IMG/VR virus record: IMGVR_UViG_3300045004_000121
Span: 1-22,275 of that record
Strand: one strand, 5' to 3'
Length of the DNA: 22,275 nt
Source: a virus
Made by a program: the position numbers and the translations under genes. Positions within the stretch are counted from its first letter, which is position 1. Every line of letters starts with the position of its first letter. Below are positions 11,519-22,000 of this stretch, one piece after another. The notes beneath the pieces are model-generated. The model was not told the DNA's origin and ran no database searches. It worked only from the letters and a program-made list of their open reading frames with translations.

Positions 11519-12778
11519 ATGACCGGCCTTATCGACTTCTCGATCTTCGCCTCGGAGAACAACGTCGCAGCCGCGCCGGTCAACTGGCAGGAGGGTATGC
11601 CCGCGAACGCAGTCAACAACTCCGCCCGCGAGATGATGGCGGCCCTGGCGCGGTGGCACTCCGACAACAACGGCTTCTTGGGCGCGACGATTTCTGGCAA
11701 TGCTGCCACCGTTGCCAGTTCGCAGGGCATCAAAGCCAGTCATTTCGACAATGGCTTCTCGGTTTCGTTCGCAACCATGCAGACGAATACCGGACCGATG
11801 ACGCTCAACATCGACAACACGGGGGCGCGGCCATGGCGTCGTCCGCGCGGCGTTGACTTCGCGCCGGGTGACATCGTCCCGTTCATGATCCACGTCGTGA
11901 TCTGGTCGCCAGCGCAGCAGGCGTATGTCTCGATAGCGCCGACTCTGGATGAGCCTGGGCGAATTGGCACGTTCGCCACCTCGGAAGCGATCCCGCCGGG
12001 CTGGGTCGAATGCGACGGTCGAGCGCTCTCTCGCTCCGCCTACTCCGCCCTGTTCGGAGTGTTCGGCACGTATTTCGGCAACGGCGACGGCTCGACGACC
12101 TTCAACATTCCAGACGTAAGTGGGCGCGCGATCTTCGGTCGCGACGCCGGCAAGGGGCGCCTTACCGGCGCCGGAGGAATCGGGGGCATTATCGGCAGCG
12201 CCGGCGGGTCCGAAACCGTCACGTTGAGCGAGGCACAGATGCCCTCGCACGGGCACGGAGGCTCGACTGGCCCGGCCGGCGCGCACGATCATGGCGGCGG
12301 CACGGGGCAGGCCGGCCAGCACAACCACGGTGGCCTGACGGGCAATTCGGGCGGGCACAATCACACCGGTACGACCGGTGGCGCCGGAGCCCATAGTCAC
12401 GGCGGCACCACCGGCAACGCCGGTAACCACGTGCATTCCCAGAACTATGAGCGGTTGAGCATCTATGGGGGCGGCGGCCAGTTGTCGGCTGTGAGCCAGC
12501 TCTTCCCGCCCGGGAACAACTCGGCGGCCACGAGCGAGGCGGCCGGCGTGCATCAGCATACCTTCACAACCGACCAAGTCGGCGAGCACTCGCACAATTT
12601 CACGACGAGCGGCGTCGGCGACCACGCCCACACCATCGGCTCTGACGGCAACCATACTCACACGATCCCCAGCGCGGTCGACCACAGCCACACGCTCAGC
12701 ATCCAGGCTGCAGGCGGCGGCCAAGCTCATCCGAACATGCCGCCCGGCTTCGTCGGCATCTTCGCAATCAAGGCCTGA
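11519..12778 (+). CDS. Tail fibre with phage collar domain and histidine needle
   Basis: A 419-residue receptor-binding or short-fibre protein. The N-terminal region has VNWQEGMPANAVNNSAREMM (residues 21-40), the usual virion-anchor segment of phage fibres. Residues about 150-215 form a tail collar domain: AIPPGWVECDGRALSRSAYS, then FNIPDVSGRAIFGRDAG. From 244 to 306 there are six H-x-H motifs at a strict spacing of 12 residues, and from 345 to 391 five more. Such H-x-H repeats in T4 fibres bind metal ions in a thin trimeric needle. The end PNMPPGFVGIFAIKA is typical of collar fibres. Residues 79-140 are related to part of the next fibre. ATG 11519 follows the anchor logic and no longer start is in frame. 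Confidence 0.85.
   Translation: MTGLIDFSIFASENNVAAAPVNWQEGMPANAVNNSAREMMAALARWHSDNNGFLGATISGNAATVASSQGIKASHFDNGFSVSFATMQTNTGPMTLNIDNTGARPWRRPRGVDFAPGDIVPFMIHVVIWSPAQQAYVSIAPTLDEPGRIGTFATSEAIPPGWVECDGRALSRSAYSALFGVFGTYFGNGDGSTTFNIPDVSGRAIFGRDAGKGRLTGAGGIGGIIGSAGGSETVTLSEAQMPSHGHGGSTGPAGAHDHGGGTGQAGQHNHGGLTGNSGGHNHTGTTGGAGAHSHGGTTGNAGNHVHSQNYERLSIYGGGGQLSAVSQLFPPGNNSAATSEAAGVHQHTFTTDQVGEHSHNFTTSGVGDHAHTIGSDGNHTHTIPSAVDHSHTLSIQAAGGGQAHPNMPPGFVGIFAIKA
12248..12436 (+). repeat. Six-unit histidine repeat, 36-base period
   Basis: The repeat encodes H-x-H-x-G-x-T-G-x-x-G-x units of 12 residues in the collar fibre. Each unit carries one pair of histidines expected to face the axis of a trimer. Confidence 0.85.
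12551..12691 (+). repeat. Five-unit histidine repeat, 36- then 30-base period
   Basis: A second array in the same fibre. The first three motifs are 12 residues apart and the last two steps are 10. Glycine-rich linkers of the first array are replaced here by T-F-T-T or T-I-x-S. Confidence 0.8.
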
Positions 12779-12810: not shown

Positions 12811-13572
12811 ATGAGCGTAACCGACTGGTCCCCCCAGCCGGGCGGCAACGCCTTGGCCGACCGCAGTATCCCGGCCCGTGACGGCATGGCCGGACGCGAG
12901 TTCCCGGAAGCGATCCGGGGCATCATGGCGAAGGTGGCCGCCTTCGTCCTCGACCAGAACGGCTCACTGGTCACAGGAGGTGCGACCAACGCCTATACGC
13001 TGATGACCCACTCGGGCATCACGGAGTTGAAGCCTGGGCTCTCGGTTTCCTTCCAGGCCGATCGCGACAGCTCAGATGTCCCGACGCTCAACGTCGATGG
13101 TCTCGGACCACGGCCGTTCCTGACACCAGCCGGGCTTCCCCTGATCGCCGGGTCGATCAAGCGCGGGCTGAACTACACCGTTGTCTGGGCGGAGGCGATC
13201 GACGCGGTACCGGCCGGCTGGCGGCTTAAGGGAGCGGCGGCCGTCCTAAACGGAAACGACTTTCAGGCGCTCGGGCACACCTCGGTCTACGATCGCGATT
13301 ATACGGCGCTGACCAGCGACGTGCAGGTCGGCTTCCGCACGCTGACCGGTTCGCGTATCGTCACGCTGCCCGACGTGGACGCCTTCCCCCTGGGACAGGA
13401 CCTCGTCATTGCCGATGAGAGCGGCGCCTGCTCGGAAGCGCTCACCATCACGATCCTGCCCGGCTCTGGTACTGGCGACACGATCGCCGGCGACGGCTCG
13501 ATCGTCCTCACCAGCCCCTATCAGGCCGTCCGCTTCCGTCGCGGCGCCGCGAACCTCTGGATCCGCCTGTGA
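12811..13572 (+). CDS. Second tail fibre-like protein
   Basis: A 253-residue protein. Residues 24-47 (DGMAGREFPEAIRGIMAKVA) match the anchor segment of the preceding fibre in pattern. Residues 76-140 share a module with residues 79-140 of that fibre, including SVSF, TLN-x-D, RP and a late VVW segment. The C-terminal half (residues 150-253) is beta-rich, with SRIVTLPDVDAFPLGQDLVI and VLTSPYQAVRFRR, which resembles the end domains of phage baseplate-type fibres. There is no collar domain or histidine needle. The stop overlaps the start of the tailspike gene (TGATG). It probably attaches the tailspike or is a second receptor binder; this is inference. Confidence 0.72.
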   Translation: MSVTDWSPQPGGNALADRSIPARDGMAGREFPEAIRGIMAKVAAFVLDQNGSLVTGGATNAYTLMTHSGITELKPGLSVSFQADRDSSDVPTLNVDGLGPRPFLTPAGLPLIAGSIKRGLNYTVVWAEAIDAVPAGWRLKGAAAVLNGNDFQALGHTSVYDRDYTALTSDVQVGFRTLTGSRIVTLPDVDAFPLGQDLVIADESGACSEALTITILPGSGTGDTIAGDGSIVLTSPYQAVRFRRGAANLWIRL

Positions 13573-15329
13573 TGATGCGCTCGCTCCTGATCCTCGCCGC
13601 GCTGCTCGGTCTGTCCGCGCCCGCGCTCGCGCAGACCCGCCCCTTGCCGCAGGGTGAGATCCGCGCCAACGGCGACATTACCTTCGGCAACGCTCTGAAG
13701 CTCGGAAAGCGCGAGGGCAACAAGACGGTCATTACCCCCGACACGCTTCAGATCCTCGGCTCAGGCTCGACCGGCGATGCGTCCGATCTGAGCGCGCGTC
13801 TTCGCGGGTCCACCAAGGCTCTCGCGCTCGGTCAGGATACCAGCATCGGTCATTCGGTGGCGCGGTTCGGTGCGCCGGGCGTCGAGACCTGCGCCGGCAA
13901 CGACGCGGTGGACGACAGCGTGGCGATCAACGCCGCGATCACCTACGTGGCGAGCCTTGGTGGCGGCAAGGTCACCTTCCCGCAGAGCGCGGATTGCCGC
14001 GTCGCCAACCCGGTCATCCTCAGGCGGGCTGTGCAGCTTTGGGGGCATGGAGGCATCGGTGTCGATGGCGGCGTGAAGACAAGCCGGATCAGCCCGTCCG
14101 CCAGCATGGATGCGGTGGTCAAGCAGGCGGACCCGAACGAGCTTCTGAGCAGCGTCGGAATTCACAACATCACGTTCGATGGACGGCGCGCTGGCTCCCC
14201 GAACGCGCCATCCGGAAAGACGATCACGGTTGGCGCGCTGGTCAACGTTAAGTCGATCGGCTCGCGTTATCAGGACAATGGCTTTTTCTACTCGTCCGGT
14301 GACGGACTAGTATTGCGCAACGACATCTCGTCCTTCGCCTGGATCAATTGGGTGACGGGCAACCAGCTCTCCCAAAACCGTGGCTGGGCTCTCCGCCTGG
14401 AGAGCACCGACAGTATCGTCTCCATGAACTACATCGGCGTAAACGGCGTGATGGGGGTGGCCGGTGGCGGCAAGACTGCGACAGAGAACGGCTCGGGTGG
14501 CTGCGTTTGGACTCGGAATTTCGGCAACATCCGCTTCTTCGGTAATCAGATCGAAGTCTGCAACGTCGGAGTGCTAGAGCAGAGCGTCGATGAAGGTAAC
14601 TACCCCGCTTATGGTAATTACTGGACCGGCAACTTTTTCGATCTCAACAATACCAGCGTTCAATTCAAGCATGGCGCGTTGTCTGCCGGCTCGATGATCG
14701 ACTACACCGGTGTGTTCTCAGGGAACCGCTTTAGTACCGCAACGGATAACCACATCACGATCGACGATTACATTAGCTCTGGAACAGTCGCCGCGTCCGT
14801 TTTCAATCCAACCAAGGCAGGCGGAGCGGCCATCAAGTGGCTTGGCTCCAATTCCAGCAAGTGGTCTTTCTCCGGCAAGTTCTTGGATACCACCAACCCG
14901 CGCTTCCAAAATATGCCGGCGGATACCGCCATCGAGATCGCGGGAGACTCTCCGCAGTCGCGCGTCCCAGGTCTGACGGCCAGCCCCGCCCCGAATGGGT
15001 CGGCGGTTTTCGGGATCGATGCTGGTCCCGGCAACGTGCCGTCGATGGAGTTCCGGCAGACCGGTTCCATCAAGTATCGCACGCGGATCAACCCGGCGGA
15101 TGGCTCGCTCACCACCTCAAACGTCGAGTTTGGCCAGGACGCGTTCAAGGTGCTCTTCAATGGCCAGACACAGTTCCTGAACCCTGTTGGCTTCAACGGG
15201 GCGACGCCGGCAGGTAAGTGCACGTTGCCCGCCGCCGTGCAAAATGACGGAGGGGCTACAAATGCCAGCCTCGCAAACCTGCTGAACAGTATCAGGGCCT
15301 GCCTGATCAACAACGGGCTGGCTCAGTAA
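13572..15329 (+). CDS. Beta-helix tailspike with an N-terminal signal peptide
   Basis: A 585-residue protein. Residues 1-20 are a textbook Sec signal ([20 protein letters not shown], cleavage before Gln21), which is odd for a virion protein. Residues about 112-137 ([20 protein letters not shown], then GGKVTFP) open a pectate-lyase-like right-handed beta-helix that runs to about 470, with many short Asn/Gly turns. The C-terminus ([20 protein letters not shown]) resembles the short end module of phage spikes and fibres. Such spikes usually bind or cut capsule or LPS. The start is ATG 13572 (coupled), with ATG 13575 next and GTG 13569 also in frame. Codon third positions contain visibly more A/T than in neighbours, a sign of acquisition. 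Confidence 0.75.
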
Positions 15330-15387
15330 CCGACCCGCTCGCCGCGCCATCCGACCCGAGCCCGCTCTCTCGACAACCGGAACTACC

Positions 15388-15726
15388 ATGCTCCTGCAGC
15401 GCCTCGCGGTGCGGGCCGCCCTCGCTTGCCTCGTGCTCAGCGTGACGCCGGCTCACGCCGAAATTGCATCGTGGTACGGCCCCGGCTTTCACGGGCGGCT
15501 GACGGCCAACGGTGAGCGGTTCGATCAGAACGCGCTCACCGCCGCGCACCGGAGCCTGCGCTTCGGCACCCGCGTGCGGGTCACCAACAGCGCGACCGGC
15601 CGCTCGGTGGTCGTGCGGATCAACGACCGGGGTCCGTTCGTCGCCGGCCGCTCCATCGATCTCGCCCGCGGCGCCGCCCGGGCCATCGGCTGCGGCACCT
15701 GCCGCGTCGCTCTTCAGCCCCTCTGA
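15388..15726 (+). CDS. Secreted minimal RlpA-type lytic transglycosylase
   Basis: A 112-residue protein: a signal peptide (residues 1-24, cleavage AHA|E) followed by one RlpA double-psi beta-barrel domain. [20 protein letters not shown] opens the domain and [10 protein letters not shown] continues it. Glu43, Asp46 and His54 keep the +3 and +8 spacing of the essential residues of Pseudomonas RlpA, so it is probably active on peptide-free glycan strands. It has no lipobox and no SPOR domain, unlike the host septal protein of about 350 residues. Cys102 and Cys105 form a C-x-x-C pair near the end. In this lysis cassette it may help the endolysin finish the wall. The symbol rlpA is avoided because the domain layout differs. 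Confidence 0.85.
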
Positions 15727-15748
15727 TCCTCCCGCGCCAGGACCGCCA

Positions 15749-16240
15749 ATGTCCCGCCTCGCCTACTATGCCGACTTCGTTTCGATGCCGGCGCTCGCGC
15801 TGGTGCTGATCCTGTTCGGCGGCGCCACGCTGCCGGGCATCATCCTCGGCCTCGCCGCCTGGACGCTGGCCGAGTACGTCATCCACCGCGTGCTGTTCCA
15901 CCGACTGCCGCTGTTCAAAGCGGGGCACGACGAGCACCATGCCAAGCCCTCGGGCCGAACCGGCGTCACCTCCTGGCACTCGCTCCTCGTGTTCGGGGCG
16001 CTGTTCCTGCTGCTGCCGGCGGGCGCGCTTGCGGGCCTCGCCCTCGGCTATCTCGCCTACATCGCGGCCCACCACGCCATCCATCACTGGCGGATCGCGC
16101 CGGGGCACGTGCTCTATGCCCTGAAGATCCGGCACGCGATGCATCACCGCGGTGACGAGGTGAACTTCGGCGTCGTCACCACCCTGTGGGACCGCGCCTT
16201 CGGGACGTACCGGCCGCCCGCCGCTCGATCTGCTCAATAG
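15749..16240 (+). CDS. Fatty acid hydroxylase/sterol desaturase-like membrane protein
   Basis: A 163-residue membrane protein whose histidine clusters match the di-iron fatty acid hydroxylase superfamily: H46-x4-H51, H60-x2-H63-H64, H108-H109 with H112-H113, and H129-x2-H132-H133. The end LWDRAFGTYRPP is also a typical family ending. Hydrophobic stretches are at about 14-43, 78-106 and part of 107-125. The family hydroxylates or desaturates membrane lipids using iron and oxygen. At 163 residues it is at the short end of the family. The gene lies 22 bases after the RlpA gene and 48 before the endolysin, all in one direction. ATG 15749 is chosen because longer starts fall in the RlpA gene. The phage role is unknown. 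Confidence 0.82.
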   Translation: MSRLAYYADFVSMPALALVLILFGGATLPGIILGLAAWTLAEYVIHRVLFHRLPLFKAGHDEHHAKPSGRTGVTSWHSLLVFGALFLLLPAGALAGLALGYLAYIAAHHAIHHWRIAPGHVLYALKIRHAMHHRGDEVNFGVVTTLWDRAFGTYRPPAARSAQ

Positions 16241-16288
16241 CCGCGCCACCGCTGCACCGCCGACACCCTCGACAATCTGGAGAACCCG

Positions 16289-17092
16289 ATGGCCGCGAGC
16301 CTGAACCGCGCCGCCTTCTACGCGGCCGTGCGCGCATCCTTGTTCGGCGGGCGTCTGACGGCCTCGCAGGTCGCGGGCATGGATGCGATCCTCGACGCCG
16401 CGCCCTCGCTGCTCGGCACGACGTCGCTCGGCTACTCGCTGGCGACCACGTTCCACGAGACGGCGCGCACCATGCAGCCGATCGAGGAATACGGTCGGGG
16501 CAAGGGCCGCGCCTACGGTCCCACCGGCTTCTGGGGACGCGGCTTCGTGCAGCTCACCTGGGAAACGAATTACGCCAAGGCGACCGCGCGGCTGCGGCAG
16601 CTTGGCTACCTGCGAGCCGACGAGGACCTGGTGAAGACGCCGAAGCTCGCGATGCGGCTCGACGTGGCGGCGGCCATCCTCTTCTACGGCATGGTTGAGG
16701 GTTGGTTCACCGGCAAGAAGCTGTCCGACTATTTCGGCGGCGGGCGGTACGAGCCGGTCGGAGCCCGCCGCATCATCAACGGCACCGACAAGGACGACCT
16801 GATCGCCGGCCAATGCGGTCTCTTCGTCGATGCGCTGCGCGCGGCCGGACACTCGGTGATCCCCGGAACTCCTCAGGTTAGCTCCTCAGGTTCGGCCGCG
16901 AGTTCCCCTCCTTTGTCTCCCAAAGGTGAGGAGCTATCCGCCTTGGCTCTCACGAAAGCCGATCCGTTGAACACAAAGCCCGCCCCCACCGGCGGGCTTC
17001 TTCGTTCCGGGGTCCAGGCCACCGGCGGCGCGGTCCGCTCCGGCCTCACCGGGCTCTACGACCTGATCCACACCTCGTTCCGGAAGGCCTGA
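16289..17092 (+). CDS. GH19-family (chitinase-class) endolysin
   Basis: A 267-residue cell-wall hydrolase that should cut glycan strands at the end of the lytic cycle. The catalytic Glu is probably Glu57 in LATTFHETARTMQPIEEYGR, and the family block GFWGRGFVQLTWETNY occupies residues 80-95. A later signature is GMVEGWFTGKKL, and ARRIING with the segment after it ends the domain near residue 190. There is no signal peptide, so export must depend on the holins. Residues 191-267 form an unusual tail made of Ser/Pro/Gly-rich sequence and an amphipathic end, partly encoded by palindromic DNA. ATG 16289 has GGAG at good spacing (TCTGGAGAACCCG). Confidence 0.88.
   Translation: MAASLNRAAFYAAVRASLFGGRLTASQVAGMDAILDAAPSLLGTTSLGYSLATTFHETARTMQPIEEYGRGKGRAYGPTGFWGRGFVQLTWETNYAKATARLRQLGYLRADEDLVKTPKLAMRLDVAAAILFYGMVEGWFTGKKLSDYFGGGRYEPVGARRIINGTDKDDLIAGQCGLFVDALRAAGHSVIPGTPQVSSSGSAASSPPLSPKGEELSALALTKADPLNTKPAPTGGLLRSGVQATGGAVRSGLTGLYDLIHTSFRKA
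16879..16936 (+). repeat. REP-like palindrome inside the endolysin gene
   Basis: TAGCTCCTCA (16879-16888) is the exact inverse of TGAGGAGCTA (16927-16936). A second stem CCTTTG/CAAAGG (16910-16915 and 16921-16926) nests inside. CTCCTCAGGTT also occurs twice in a row (16869-16879 and 16882-16892). The translation SSPPLSPKGEE resembles peptides seen where repetitive palindromes have entered genes. Origin as a REP element is an inference. Confidence 0.55.
16976..16999. terminator. Terminator-like hairpin inside the endolysin gene
   Basis: AAGCCCGCC (16976-16984) pairs with GGCGGGCTT (16991-16999) around a 6-base loop. The bases after it on the plus strand (CTTCGTT) are only moderately T-rich. 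It is 90 bases before the endolysin stop. It may be a relic of an older operon end, now read through, or a partial terminator that lowers holin expression. Confidence 0.45.
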
Positions 17093-17095
17093 CCC

Positions 17096-17362
17096 ATGGC
17101 GCCCCGTCCCTTCCTCGCGCGGGCCCGCCTCAGCCTGCGCCGCTGCTGGCGCGCGGCCTCGGGCTGGCGCGTCTACCTGCTGGCGGCCGTCATGGCTCTG
17201 CCCGACGTCCTCGACGCGCTCCCCGGCGTCGATCTCACGCCGCTCCTGCCGGCGTGGCTGCCAGGCGCGAAGGTGGCGACCTTCGTGGCTGTCGCCCGGC
17301 TCGCGGCCCGCGCCTACGCGACGAAGCTCGCGACGCTGCCGGCGCGGGAGCCGCCCCGATGA
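17096..17362 (+). CDS. Small holin-like membrane protein
   Basis: An 88-residue protein with a strongly basic amphipathic N-terminus (RPFLARARLSLRRCWRAAS), one hydrophobic segment at about 26-36 and another at about 58-72. The phrase LTPLLPAWLPGAKVATFVAV resembles small phage proteins encoded beside endolysins in Rhizobiales prophages. It starts 3 bases after the endolysin stop and overlaps the next gene (ATGA). A role as holin or pinholin partner is inferred. It could also be an anti-holin to the following protein. Confidence 0.65.
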   Translation: MAPRPFLARARLSLRRCWRAASGWRVYLLAAVMALPDVLDALPGVDLTPLLPAWLPGAKVATFVAVARLAARAYATKLATLPAREPPR

Positions 17363-17775
17363 ACCTCCTCGGCTGGCTCTCGAACCCGATCGGGTCCGCG
17401 CTCGGCGCCATCGGCTCTGGCCTCATCAAGGTGTTCGGCAACTCGGTGCTGAGCCCGATCCTCAAATCGATCGAGAACGGCCAGAACGCCCAGCGCGACG
17501 TGGCGGTGCAGGTCGTCCAGGCCGAGATCGCGGCGAACCAAGCGAAGGCGGCGATCGCGCCCGCCTTCAAGGGCCTCATCTACGGGATCGGCATCCCGCC
17601 CGCGATCCATTTCGGGGCGGCCTGCCTGACGAAGACCTTCGATCTCGGCTGGAACGTCCAGCCGCTGCCGCCTGAGTACGTGCCGATCGAGGCCACGATC
17701 CTCACCGCCTTCTTCGTCTCCTCGCCCCTCACGACGCTAGCGCGGGCCGGCGCCGCGCGCCTCCTGAAAGCCTGA
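17359..17775 (+). CDS. Putative 3TM-type phage holin
   Basis: A 138-residue membrane protein. The N-terminus (NLLGWLSNPIGSALGAIGSG) is amphipathic. A central polar helix with AQRDVAVQVVQAEIAANQAK is followed by IYGIGIPPAIHFGAACLTKT, then FDLGWNVQPLP, and EATILTAFFVSSPL. The 'IHFGA-x-C-x-x-x-x-F-x-x-G-W' pattern is the familiar core of 3TM phage holins of alphaproteobacteria. The protein should form the membrane lesion that releases the endolysin. The start at 17359 overlaps the previous stop; an earlier frame start at 17254 lies inside the previous gene and is discarded. Confidence 0.75.
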   Translation: MNLLGWLSNPIGSALGAIGSGLIKVFGNSVLSPILKSIENGQNAQRDVAVQVVQAEIAANQAKAAIAPAFKGLIYGIGIPPAIHFGAACLTKTFDLGWNVQPLPPEYVPIEATILTAFFVSSPLTTLARAGAARLLKA

Positions 17776-17779
17776 TCCG

Positions 17780-18136
17780 ATGGACACCTCGTTCCTCGCC
17801 GCCGGCCCGATCTCCTGGGCTCAGGTCGTGGCGCTCGCGCTGTTCCTCGTCGGGCTTGGCAAGCTCGTCGACTGGATCACAGGCAAGTTGCGAGCTGGCA
17901 CGAAGGACGCGGTGTCCCCGCTCACCATCGACATGGCTGCGGTGAAGATCCAGATCGCGGCCCAGACCGAAGCCCTGCACAACTTCAAGGTCGAGGTCGC
18001 CCGAACCTACGTCACCGGCGACGTCATCACCCGAATGGAGCGCCGCATCGACGACCTCGTGACCTCGATGCGCGAGGAAATGGCCGCGACACGCCGGGAG
18101 ATGCTTCAGGCGATCACGGGGCGCCGGCCCGACTGA
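17780..18136 (+). CDS. Membrane-anchored coiled-coil protein, spanin-like
   Basis: A 118-residue protein with one N-terminal membrane segment (ISWAQVVALALFLVGLGKLV, about residues 11-30) followed by a long charged helical region with heptad-like spacing (about 50-112, including MERRIDDLVTSMREEMAATR). This shape, and its place after the holin, fit an inner-membrane spanin or a holin regulator. No overlapping lipoprotein frame (o-spanin) was found. The tail ends in GRRPD. The strong terminator follows 30 bases after the stop, so this is the last gene of the late operon. Confidence 0.6.
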   Translation: MDTSFLAAGPISWAQVVALALFLVGLGKLVDWITGKLRAGTKDAVSPLTIDMAAVKIQIAAQTEALHNFKVEVARTYVTGDVITRMERRIDDLVTSMREEMAATRREMLQAITGRRPD

Positions 18137-18142
18137 TCCCCG

Positions 18143-18577
18143 CTATCCACATCCGTCCACACACCGCCCCGGGGCTTCGGCCTCGGGGCTTTTTTCGTGC
18201 GTGCTGCCGGCCGGCCGCTCGTATCCCTCCCATGCGACCATGGCGACCCAAGGCGTCATCCCGCCGTCGTCGTGGGCGGTCAGCGCCCGCATCTCTGCGC
18301 GCCAGTCCCGCTCCAGCACCCAGGCCTCGCGCAGCGCCTCGATCGCCTCCTCCTTCGTGTGCCGGAAGCCGCTGTCCGTCTTGCTCGGCTTCGACACGCC
18401 GACGAACTGGCTCACGCAGGTGATCGTCCAGTACCAGCGCGGCGGGGCGGGGATGGTGTCGTTGCGGTAGATCCGGCCGACAACGATGCCGCGGACCTCG
18501 AGCGTGAAGTCGGGGCCGGGCTTGAAGGTGTGGCGCCAGACCTCGGCGTCGGGATCGATCTCCGGCGCCTCAGCCAT
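18143..18577 (-). CDS. Hypothetical phage protein with terminator-encoded C-terminus
   Basis: A 144-residue soluble protein of unknown function. Visible features: the N-terminal acidic segment, a strand-rich part with VGRIYRNDTIPAPPRWYWTI, and a helix with TKEEAIEALREAWVLERDWR. The pattern 'G-R-I-Y-R, W-x-W, then T-x-x-E-A' is common in short proteins of Rhizobiales phages. ATG 18577 is preferred over GTG 18580. It overlaps the upstream zinc-ribbon gene by 8 bases, so it is coupled. The last 15 residues are partly encoded by the late-operon terminator, which suggests this end is not conserved. Confidence 0.65.
   Translation of the reverse strand: MAEAPEIDPDAEVWRHTFKPGPDFTLEVRGIVVGRIYRNDTIPAPPRWYWTITCVSQFVGVSKPSKTDSGFRHTKEEAIEALREAWVLERDWRAEMRALTAHDDGGMTPWVAMVAWEGYERPAGSTHEKSPEAEAPGRCVDGCG
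18166..18195 (+). terminator. Intrinsic terminator of the late operon
   Basis: Arms 18166-18175 and 18180-18189 pair over 10 bases with one G-T wobble around a TTCG tetraloop, followed by six T (18190-18195). It is the clearest terminator in the prophage and marks the end of the plus-strand operon. It lies inside the 3' part of the convergent minus-strand gene. Confidence 0.92.
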
Positions 18578-18785
18578 CACGATCCGACGACGGAGGGGAC
18601 TCTTCGATCATCTCAAAGGACGGCCATTGCGTGCTGTTCCACTCGCGGATGAGGTGCCCGCATTTCCCGCAGTGGAAGTCGCCCTTATCCCGCGCCGGCG
18701 CACGGAAAATCGTCACCTTATAGCGCGCGCCACACCCTTCGCAGGTTTCGACACCGCCATCGCCCCGCCCCCATGTCTTGACCAT
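18570..18785 (-). CDS. Small zinc-ribbon protein
   Basis: A 71-residue protein with two CxxC knuckles: C15-x2-C18 and C39-x2-C42, separated by 20 residues. The spacing fits a zinc ribbon that binds nucleic acid or a protein partner. Between the knuckles lies a short basic beta segment (ARYKVTIFRAPARDKGDF). The C-terminus is acidic and Ser/Pro-rich. The gene starts 3 bases after the upstream gene's stop, and its end overlaps the next one, so the three minus-strand genes form an operon. Such tiny zinc ribbons are frequent in phage early regions, often as transcription modulators; no specific function can be given. Confidence 0.7.
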   Translation of the reverse strand: MVKTWGRGDGGVETCEGCGARYKVTIFRAPARDKGDFHCGKCGHLIREWNSTQWPSFEMIEESPPSSDRDG

Positions 18786-19144: not shown

Positions 19145-19180
19145 TGGTGGGCGGTGAGGGACTCGAACCCCCGACCCTCT
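19145..19180. other. Probable attachment site (att) in the tRNA-Val 3' half
   Basis: Phage genes end just beyond the tRNA 3' end and host genes lie on its 5' side. A duplicate of part of this sequence should exist at the left end of the prophage, outside the window, so the exact core cannot be set here. The right-hand limit at 19180 is only a typical core length. Confidence 0.5.
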
Positions 19181-19220
19181 CCGTGTAAAGGAGACGCTCT
19201 ACCAACTGAGCTAACCGCCC
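19145..19220 (-). tRNA. tRNA-Val (anticodon TAC)
   Basis: A complete cloverleaf reads on the minus strand. The acceptor stem is GGGCGGT/ACCGCCC, the D stem GCTC/GAGC, and the anticodon stem TCTCC/GGAGA with loop TTTACAC (anticodon TAC). The T stem GGGGG/CCCTC has one G-T pair and loop TTCGAGT. The discriminator is A and CCA is encoded (19145-19147). The gene is intact, as expected when a phage integrates at the 3' end and restores it. Confidence 0.96.
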
Positions 19221-19299
19221 GAACCGGCGCCGCGCAGCGTTACGGAAGGGAACGCGGCTGCGCAAGACCGCCCGTGTTCCCTCGCCTGCGTCGCGAATG

Positions 19300-19332
19300 A
19301 AAAAAGCCCCCGAAGCAAGGCTCCGGGGGCTT
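19300..19332 (-). terminator. Intrinsic terminator of lon
   Basis: On the minus strand AAGCCCCCG (19332-19324) pairs with CGGGGGCTT (19312-19304), followed by a run of T (19305-19300 read as A on plus). It lies 24 bases after the lon stop. Confidence 0.9.
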
Positions 19333-19355
19333 CGATCATTGCAAGCGTCGCGGCA

Positions 19356-21779
19356 TCAGTGGGCGATGACCGCCGCGCCGTCCTCGTCGCGCTTCGGCGC
19401 CTTCGACGGGAGCGGCTCGTCCCACTCGATGGGCTCGGGCTGGCGCACGAGGGCGTGCTGCAGCACCTGATCCATCCGCGAGACGGGCACGATCTCCAGG
19501 CCGTTCTTCACGCTGTCGGGCACCTCGGCGATGTCCTTGGCGTTCTCCTCGGGGATCAGCACCGTCTTGATGCCGCCGCGCAGCGCGGCGAGCAGCTTCT
19601 CCTTCAGGCCGCCGATCGGCAGGACGCGACCGCGCAGCGTCACCTCGCCGGTCATCGCCACGTCGCGGCGCACCGGAATGCCGGTGAGCGTCGAGATGAT
19701 GGCGGTGGCCATGGCGATGCCGGCCGACGGACCGTCCTTCGGGGTCGCCCCCTCCGGAACGTGGACGTGGATGTCCCGACGCTCGAACAGCGGCGGCTCG
19801 ATGCCGAAGTCGATGGCCCGCGAGCGGACGTAGCTCGCCGCTGCCGAGATCGACTCCTTCATCACGTCGCGCAGGTTGCCCGTGACCGTCATCTTGCCCT
19901 TGCCGGGCATCATGACGCCCTCGATCGTGAGCAGCTCGCCGCCGACCTCGGTCCAGGCCAGACCCGTGACGACGCCGACCTGATCGTCCGCGTCGATCTC
20001 GCCGTAGCGGAACTTCGGCGGACCGAGGAATTCCGGCAGCGTCTCAGGATTGGCCTCGACCTGCTTCACCTTGGTGATCAGGATCTCCTTCACCGCCTTG
20101 CGGATCAGGTTGGAGATCTCGCGCTCCAGGTTGCGGACGCCCGCCTCCCGCGTGTAGCGGCGGATGAGCATCATCAGGCCGTCGTCGGTGATCGACCACT
20201 CGTCGGTCCCGAGCCCGTGCTTCTTCACAGCCTCGGGGATCAGATGGCGGCGGGCGATCTCCAGCTTCTCCTCTTCGGTGTAGCCGGCGATACGGATCAC
20301 CTCCATCCGGTCCATGAGCGGGCCGGGGATGTTGAGCGTGTTCGCGGTCGTCACGAACATCACGTTCGACAGGTCGTAATCGACCTCGAGGTAATGGTCG
20401 TTGAAGGTCGCGTTCTGCTCCGGATCCAGAACCTCGAGGAGCGCCGCCGACGGATCGCCGCGGAAATCCATGCCCATCTTGTCGATCTCGTCGAGCAGGA
20501 TGAGCGGGTTCGAGGTCTTGGCCTTGCGCATCGACTGGACGATCTTGCCGGGCATCGAGCCGATATAGGTCCGGCGGTGACCGCGGATCTCGGCCTCATC
20601 ACGCACGCCGCCGAGCGACATCCGGACGAATTCGCGACCCGTGGCCTTGGCGATCGACTTGCCGAGCGAGGTCTTGCCGACGCCGGGGGGGCCGACGAGG
20701 CAGAGGATCGGGCCGGTGAGCTTGTTCGCCCGCTGCTGCACGGCGAGATACTCGACGATCCGGTCCTTGACCTTGTCGAGGCCGAAGTGGTCCGAGTCGA
20801 GGATCGCTTGCGCGCCCAACAGGTCCTTCTTGATCTTCGAGCGCTTACCCCACGGGATGCCGAGCATCCAGTCGAGGTAGTTGCGCACGACGGTGGCCTC
20901 GGCCGACATCGGCGACATCTGACGCAGCTTCTTCAGCTCGGCGGTGGCCTTCTCGCGGGCCTCCTTCGTCAGCTTGGTCTTCTCGATCTTCTCCTCGAGC
21001 TCGGCCAGCTCGTCGCGGCCGTCCTCGCTGTCGCCGAGCTCCTTCTGGATCGCCTTCATCTGCTCGTTGAGGTAGTACTCGCGCTGGGTCTTCTCCATCT
21101 GCCGCTTGACGCGGGTCCGGATGCGCTTCTCCACCTGCAGAACGGAGATCTCGCTCTCCATCAGCGACAGCACGCGCTCCAGGCGCTGCGCCACCGTGGG
21201 GATCTCAAGGATCGCCTGCTTGTCGGCGATCTTGACCGCGAGGTGCGAGCCCACCGTGTCGGCGAGCTTGGACGGCTCGTCGATCTGCGTGACGGCGGAG
21301 ACGACCTCGGGCGAGATCTTCTTGTTGAGCTTCACGTAGTTCTCGAACTCGGAGATCACCGACCGGGCGAGCGCCTCGGCCTCGACGCGGTCGCCGAGAT
21401 CGTCGGCGAGCGTGAGGGCACGCGCCTCGTAATACTCGTCGGAGCGGACGAACTCCTCGATCTGCGCACGGCCGGCACCCTCGACCAGCACCTTCACGGT
21501 GCCGTCGGGCAGCTTGAGGAGCTGCAGCACGGAGGCGAGCGTGCCGATCGTGTAGATGGCATCGGTGGCCGGATCGTCGTCGCTCGCGTTGATCTGCGTG
21601 GCAAGCAGGATGTGCCGGTCCGAACGCACCGCCTCCTCAAGCGCGCGGATCGACTTCTCGCGGCCCACGAAGAGGGGCACGATCATGTGCGGAAACACGA
21701 CGATGTCGCGCAGCGGCAGGACGGCGTAGGAGCCCGTCGAACCGGGAACGACCGGCTGGCGCGATTTCGACTGGGTCAT
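19356..21779 (-). CDS. lon: ATP-dependent protease Lon
   Basis: Lon is the cytoplasmic hexameric AAA+ serine protease that degrades misfolded and regulatory proteins. The 807-residue product has all domains: the N-terminal substrate domain ([20 protein letters not shown] near residues 21-40), the long coiled region (200-290), the Walker A motif GPPGVGKT (363-370), Walker B LILLDEID (426-433), and the protease domain with Ser685 in PKDGPSAG and Lys728 in GGLKEK. The length matches alphaproteobacterial Lon. ATG 21779 with a GGGAAGA site 4 bases upstream is preferred to the longer start at 21833. A CTTGAAA element at 21980-21974 could be part of a heat-shock (RpoH) promoter, but the -10 is weak. 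This is host DNA. Confidence 0.97.
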
Positions 21780-22000
21780 GGGGTCTTCCCTTGATCTGTT
21801 GACGCCGGGCATTCGCTCCTCACTGGAGAGCAAGCATCCTGCCAGGTGCCGACCGGGCCGCGAAGGGTCGGAAGCGGATAATCAGATTGCGGCTGGTGGC
21901 GCAGGCCCGACCTTTCGGGGGAGTGAAGCGTAGGGCCCTGCGTTGAGCCTGAAGTGGTCGTTGCGGAGGGCGCTTTCAAGCGTGGGCCCCCTCCGGAACG
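21780..22000 (-). promoter_or_regulatory. Upstream region of lon
   Basis: No gene is seen here. On the minus strand a CTTGAAA box (21980-21974) resembles the -35 of heat-shock promoters. A good -10 partner is not clear (CCACTTCA at about 21957-21950 is the nearest). The clpX terminator bounds the region on the far side. A 67-codon frame in this gap has no ribosome site or family features. Confidence 0.3.

Follow-up and report, generated by a model that had tools for sequence, protein, structure and literature searches.

Descriptions of phage lysis assign the process to holin, endolysin and spanins, and to our knowledge give lipid chemistry no place in this scheme. The locus studied here raises the question of what a membrane lipid hydroxylase gene is doing between a secreted RlpA-like protein and a phage endolysin. 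The window (the whole stretch of DNA that was analysed, the 22,275-base virus record IMGVR_UViG_3300045004_000121) covers the right part of a prophage, relatives of which are found in Methylobacterium and Methylorubrum genomes. Its gene order runs from the head protein through the tail genes to RlpA, hydroxylase, endolysin and three small membrane-protein genes (Table 1).

Table 1 Features of the window, and lysis settings of the hydroxylase gene in distant viral contigs.
Location	Feature	Strand	Basis or remark
29-934	major head protein		PHROG 334
15388..15726	secreted RlpA-like double-psi beta-barrel protein, 112 aa	+	PF03330 (DPBB_1) E 6.9e-23; TIGR00413 rlpA
15749..16240	FA_hydroxylase (PF04116), membrane di-metal lipid hydroxylase, 163 aa	+	exact ORF, ATG to TAG; profile, alignment, dN/dS, model
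16289..17092	endolysin, 267 aa	+	PHROG 181 (lysis) E 1.3e-25
17096..17362	small membrane protein, 88 aa, weak holin candidate	+	one hydrophobic stretch; conserved position
17359..17775	small membrane protein, 138 aa, holin candidate by position	+	PHROG 12264 E 1.3e-7
17780..18136	membrane-anchored coiled protein, 118 aa, spanin- or holin-like by position	+	one N-terminal hydrophobic stretch
18166..18189	strong intrinsic-terminator-like hairpin, 10 bp stem, T tail	+	closes lysis module
19145-19220	tRNA-Val gene		beyond prophage
19356-21833	bacterial lon gene		beyond prophage
L190	hydroxylase after peptidoglycan-binding endolysin		ATGA start/stop overlap; then holin-like and spanin-like genes
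L194	hydroxylase directly after endolysin		34% identity to the related L190 endolysin
L202	hydroxylase directly after PG-binding and CHAP endolysin		
L205	hydroxylase directly after M15 peptidase		overlapping
L207	M15 endolysin and hydroxylase		separated by two small genes
L212	hydroxylase directly after GH25 endolysin		overlapping
L213	hydroxylase directly after PHROG 181 endolysin		overlapping

The window protein was found to match Pfam PF04116 over the whole domain (profile positions 2-132 of 132) with an E value of 3.5e-17 and 63.5 bits, against a cut-off of 31, in agreement with the first-pass annotation, which had called it FA_hydroxylase-like. The histidine clusters that it had described as kept are all present, in the form of HX4H (H46/H51), HX2HH (H60/H63/H64), HX3H (H108/H112) and HX2HH (H129/H132/H133) motifs, with H109 and H113 also falling within the third cluster. 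Across 28 aligned homologues from viruses and chromosomes, with identities to the window protein down to 32%, none of these ten ligand histidines varies. In FA2H/Scs7 it is four histidine motifs that build the di-metal centre (PMC10002949). A PDB sequence search with the window protein returned yeast Scs7 only (E about 1e-9), while the family profile retrieved Scs7 with E 6.5e-19, and the ten histidines line up with those of Scs7.

An AlphaFold2 model of the hydroxylase (pLDDT 92.2, pTM 0.87) displays the integral membrane helical fold of Scs7, and the only significant Foldseek matches among solved structures were Scs7 4zr0 and 4zr1 (prob 1.00, TM 0.70-0.77). Superposition of this model on the hydroxylase domain of Scs7 implies that the histidines are clustered. 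Hence, on the basis of sequence and predicted structure, the identity of the enzyme as a membrane lipid hydroxylase is well supported. The protein thus resembles yeast Scs7 and mammalian FA2H (PDB 4zr0, 4zr1; PMC10002949) in its PF04116 domain, ten aligned histidines and fold (TM 0.77), and shares with Scs7 a C-terminal FGV-T-WD-FGT stretch. Unlike Scs7 and FA2H, it consists of the hydroxylase domain only, has shorter loops and is encoded in a phage lysis module. The N-terminal cytochrome b5 domain used as a criterion for Scs7/FA2H is absent from the window protein, and we therefore assign it to the PF04116 superfamily only; plant FA2H members likewise do without this domain (PMC10002949). No PHROG family was matched by the window protein.

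Prophage copies of the hydroxylase gene display dN/dS values of 0.18-0.36, indicative of purifying selection, and comparison of the sequences thus identifies it as a real, selected gene. A long antisense ORF across it (15620-16852, minus strand) looks like a high-GC artefact and was dismissed because the codon substitutions in the plus frame show purifying selection. The gene lies in the same direction as its neighbours and at short distances, as had been noted from the sequence: 22 nt separate the RlpA stop (15726) from the hydroxylase ATG (15749), and 48 nt its stop (16240) from the endolysin ATG (16289). RlpA, the first gene of the module, has a hydrophobic N-terminal signal stretch according to its hydropathy. 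The endolysin had been labelled GH19; it is retained as an endolysin through PHROG 181, but the GH19 label found neither a Pfam nor a PDB sequence match. Among the small genes behind it, the first reaches the PHROG 1356 holin family at E 0.17 only, and the third has weak PHROG matches of unknown function. The PHROG 12264 family, represented by the second, is also encoded just behind the hydroxylase in the distant contigs L194 and L213 and is possibly an unnamed holin family.

From RlpA to the hairpin at 18166-18189 no other terminator was found on the plus strand. Since the only plus-strand hairpin sits just past the last small gene, the sequence fits one transcription unit of six genes, from RlpA through 18136. 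No sigma-70-like promoter was found in 13400-18300, although such a scan says little for this organism.

The distribution of the hydroxylase was determined in Methylobacterium prophages. Six IMG/VR contigs encode it at 88-100% identity, with RlpA just upstream and the RlpA-hydroxylase-endolysin order. It is present in 9 of 111 Methylobacterium species genomes, where some copies are decayed (G004 and G211 retain partial copies only, and G140 has one intact and one broken copy), while most intact copies show the same order. The prophage type is represented in, among others, M. thiocyanatum (L008) and M. suomiense (L009). Homologues at the same place in other prophages, the check proposed by the first-pass annotation, are thus numerous, and the gene is not confined to a single prophage. 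The upstream tail genes vary freely, and RlpA, hydroxylase, endolysin and the small genes are mostly kept together. One locus (L101) retains the RlpA-hydroxylase pair beside a swapped endolysin (40% identical), and another (L098) retains the hydroxylase with RlpA gone. RlpA is 76-96% identical to that of the window in hydroxylase-bearing cassettes, compared with 57-70% in cassettes without the hydroxylase.

At nine prophage loci with a related endolysin (G339, G333, G338, G249, G299, G330, G359, G369 and G377) no hydroxylase was found beside it. The best examples (L171, L172 and L186) carry a near-identical endolysin and downstream genes without the hydroxylase; a different RlpA version (57-64% identical) is followed there by a gap of ~190-240 bases and then by the endolysin. 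By these sequence comparisons the hydroxylase is an optional gene that accompanies a single version of RlpA. The existence of sister cassettes without the gene, together with the decay of some copies, indicates from the genomes that it is dispensable for lysis in general. Order-wide searches with two distant viral hydroxylases returned mostly host-type copies, and a related endolysin was found nearby only in the known Methylobacterium prophages. As an observation in its own right, an RlpA-like protein opens the Methylobacterium prophage lysis module in two versions, only one of which is accompanied by the hydroxylase.

Wider scans of IMG/VR provided 17 further distinct contigs that encode an FA_hydroxylase and have enough flank. 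The gene lies in a lysis setting in seven of the 17 (L190, L194, L202, L205, L207, L212 and L213), the most frequent single setting among these non-Methylobacterium contigs, and directly behind the endolysin in six (Table 1), the hydroxylases behind endolysins being about 35-49% identical to the window protein. The endolysin and hydroxylase genes often overlap in these phages, by 1-4 nt, suggesting coupled translation. It was found by BLASTP that the catalytic parts of the endolysins share no similarity except for the L190-L194 pair. The L213 endolysin was counted as one type with that of the window, since PHROG 181 is matched by both, leaving at least five types beside the hydroxylase (PHROG 181, L190/L194, CHAP, M15 and GH25). 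Six direct endolysin neighbours in 17 contigs are far more than chance, on an estimate that assumes one endolysin per 80-100 genes per contig and that, with the phages partly related, yields no exact probability. A same-strand endolysin neighbour conserved across phages, as expected of a lysis-cassette component, is therefore seen both in the Methylobacterium prophages and in L190, L194, L202, L205, L212 and L213. The distant contigs, with their other endolysin types, strengthen the lysis link beyond what the first-pass annotation could draw from the sequence alone.

Other settings are found as well, and more than half of the non-Methylobacterium viral copies are placed outside the lysis region. 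The gene lies in the replication region in L191, L199, L204 and L231, between terminase and portal in L195, in the baseplate-tail region in L214, and in other or unclear settings in L192, L203, L209 and L210. In L201, whose protein is 72% identical to that of the window, it precedes the terminase genes. It is chiefly these non-lysis settings that argue against a role confined to lysis, and since many viral copies sit outside lysis regions, the hydroxylase may serve a more general membrane role. In a maximum-likelihood tree the lysis-linked copies are mixed with other copies rather than grouped in a single clade; the lysis label requires 8 changes by parsimony, of which well-supported branches force at least 4. 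The gene has thus probably entered or left lysis cassettes several times. Taken with the sister cassettes devoid of the gene, the copies in replication and packaging regions lead us to consider it an accessory rather than a core component.

We favour, with moderate confidence, a model in which the window protein, a minimal Scs7/FA2H-type hydroxylase with a di-metal site, is catalytically competent, forms a recurring accessory part of lysis cassettes and alters envelope lipids around lysis. The gene would be transcribed late together with the endolysin, and the protein would insert into the inner membrane. As the hydroxylase has no cytochrome b5 domain of its own, electrons are proposed to come from a host carrier. 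Drawing on O2, the enzyme would then place hydroxyl groups on the acyl chains of a lipid in the host envelope, ahead of holin triggering, and these groups would alter how the lipids pack and hydrogen-bond. Additional hydroxyls are believed to strengthen hydrogen bonds between lipids and to make the membrane less fluid and less permeable (PMC3972451). The altered lipids could thereby set the timing or completeness of membrane and outer-membrane failure, and of holin and spanin action. Whereas the gene, its family, active-site residues, fold, selection and position are supported by sequence and predicted structure, its late expression, the source of electrons, the lipid acted on and the consequence for lysis are inferred. 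Holin tuning, a block to superinfection and a benefit to the lysogen, as proposed in the first-pass annotation, are candidate roles, and hopanoids, sphingolipids and lipid A candidate substrates.

The findings suggest that some phages chemically alter the host membrane around the time of lysis. More tentatively, they may point to an unrecognised lysis step beyond endolysin, holin and spanin, in which host lipids are hydroxylated by a dedicated viral hydroxylase joined to at least five endolysin types. A lipid hydroxylase recurring beside unrelated endolysins offers a testable case for such a lipid-modifying step which, if true, would open a new way to approach the timing of lysis and the envelope lipids of Alphaproteobacteria.

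The foremost alternative is that the gene is a moron. It would merely lie in the lysis region, its product modifying the envelope of the lysogen or infected cell and blocking superinfection or helping the host, with no part in lysis. We regard this as rather doubtful, while acknowledging that it accommodates the patchy presence among species genomes, the sister cassettes from which the gene is missing and the viral relatives in replication and packaging regions; late regions are also common landing sites for morons. The shared strand and the fact that neither a terminator nor a sigma-70-like promoter was found around the gene argue weakly against an independent cargo gene. A further objection comes from the distant phages, where overlaps of a few nucleotides tie the gene to several unrelated endolysin types.

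A further possibility shares the lysis setting and differs from the favoured model in substrate only: the hydroxylated lipid would be a carotenoid (CrtZ-like activity), a hopanoid or the ornithine head group (OlsE-like activity) rather than an acyl chain. PF04116 holds several activities, OlsE belongs to the same superfamily as the window protein, and Methylobacterium makes both carotenoids and hopanoids. We nevertheless consider another lipid class unlikely, given that among solved structures the nearest relative is Scs7, a fatty acyl hydroxylase, with which even the C-terminal stretch is shared. Furthermore, no NCBIfam model was matched by the window protein, and that of the rhizobial ornithine lipid hydroxylase OlsE (NF052566), a longer protein with a model of 293 positions, gave no match even at E 10. 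Lipid hydroxylation by OlsE has been associated with reduced membrane permeability (PMC3972451).

The closest cellular proteins are encoded by single genes of Beijerinckiaceae and Rhizobium (L012, L107-L112 and L117), with ~183 residues and 38-49% identity. These chromosomal FA_hydroxylases have the same histidine set but two longer loops that are missing from the phage proteins, and branch apart from the phage sequences in the tree, L115 being the sole exception. Their neighbours include no constant genes, no common pathway and no lysis genes alongside, and because no pathway is shared they give no clue to the substrate. Plasmid matches are located on large Rhizobium replicons that are unannotated at the site.

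It is less probable again that the protein is a broad viral membrane-remodelling enzyme, used early or late depending on the phage, for example for hardening against defence or for aiding assembly. The three genomic settings among related viral sequences and the mixing of lysis-linked with other copies in the tree agree with such a role, but lysis is the commonest single setting, mostly directly behind the endolysin, and no PADLOC-DB model (anti-phage defence proteins) was matched by the window protein. Virus-encoded FA_hydroxylase proteins of the same fold do occur in giant viruses (Mimiviridae and relatives); unlike the window protein, these belong to eukaryotic viruses, display weak fold similarity (best E 0.02) and are not part of a lysis cassette. 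Finally, the protein might be catalytically dead and act by forming pores or disturbing the membrane, in the manner of a holin or antiholin. Its small size, its several membrane helices and the lack of a clearly assigned holin in the cassette would suit this reading, but it is highly improbable given ligand histidines that are invariant down to the most distant homologues, the other membrane-protein holin candidates in the cassette, and the separate holin-like and spanin-like genes of the L190 cassette.

The protein family itself is familiar; for its branch in phages, and for the genomic setting there, no earlier description appears to exist. The window protein and two distant viral members gave no tblastn match in 50,697 INPHARED phage records. 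Among openly licensed papers we found no report of an FA_hydroxylase in bacteriophages, which is not proof of absence, and in the Methylobacterium prophage literature a glacier-ice phage study makes no mention of a hydroxylase.

Several minor observations concern the wider set of viruses. In L190 (7980-8849) the hydroxylase is extended by a fused C-terminal domain bearing the motifs DGCS and CVEHDKAYW, which is also found without the hydroxylase in viral contigs L218, L219 and L222. By eye this domain appeared phospholipase-A2-like, an assignment we rejected as it had no Pfam, PDB sequence or fold match and a model pLDDT of 64. A small secreted protein with an SCCG/PCCG-DAY motif is encoded near the hydroxylase in three otherwise different viruses (L190:6676-7104, L191:986-1378 and L199:6938-7762), and matched no family where tested. 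Within the window, the tail collar protein (11519-12778) contains a long repeat tract rich in histidine and glycine, and a small cysteine-rich protein (18570-18785, minus strand) has a weak match to Lar-like restriction alleviation proteins (PHROG 6422, E 0.022). The window prophage end adjoins tRNA-Val and lon (19145-21833), and a related prophage in G334 (L185) ends at the same lon neighbourhood, with Lon 100% identical over 601 residues, suggesting an integration site in this neighbourhood.
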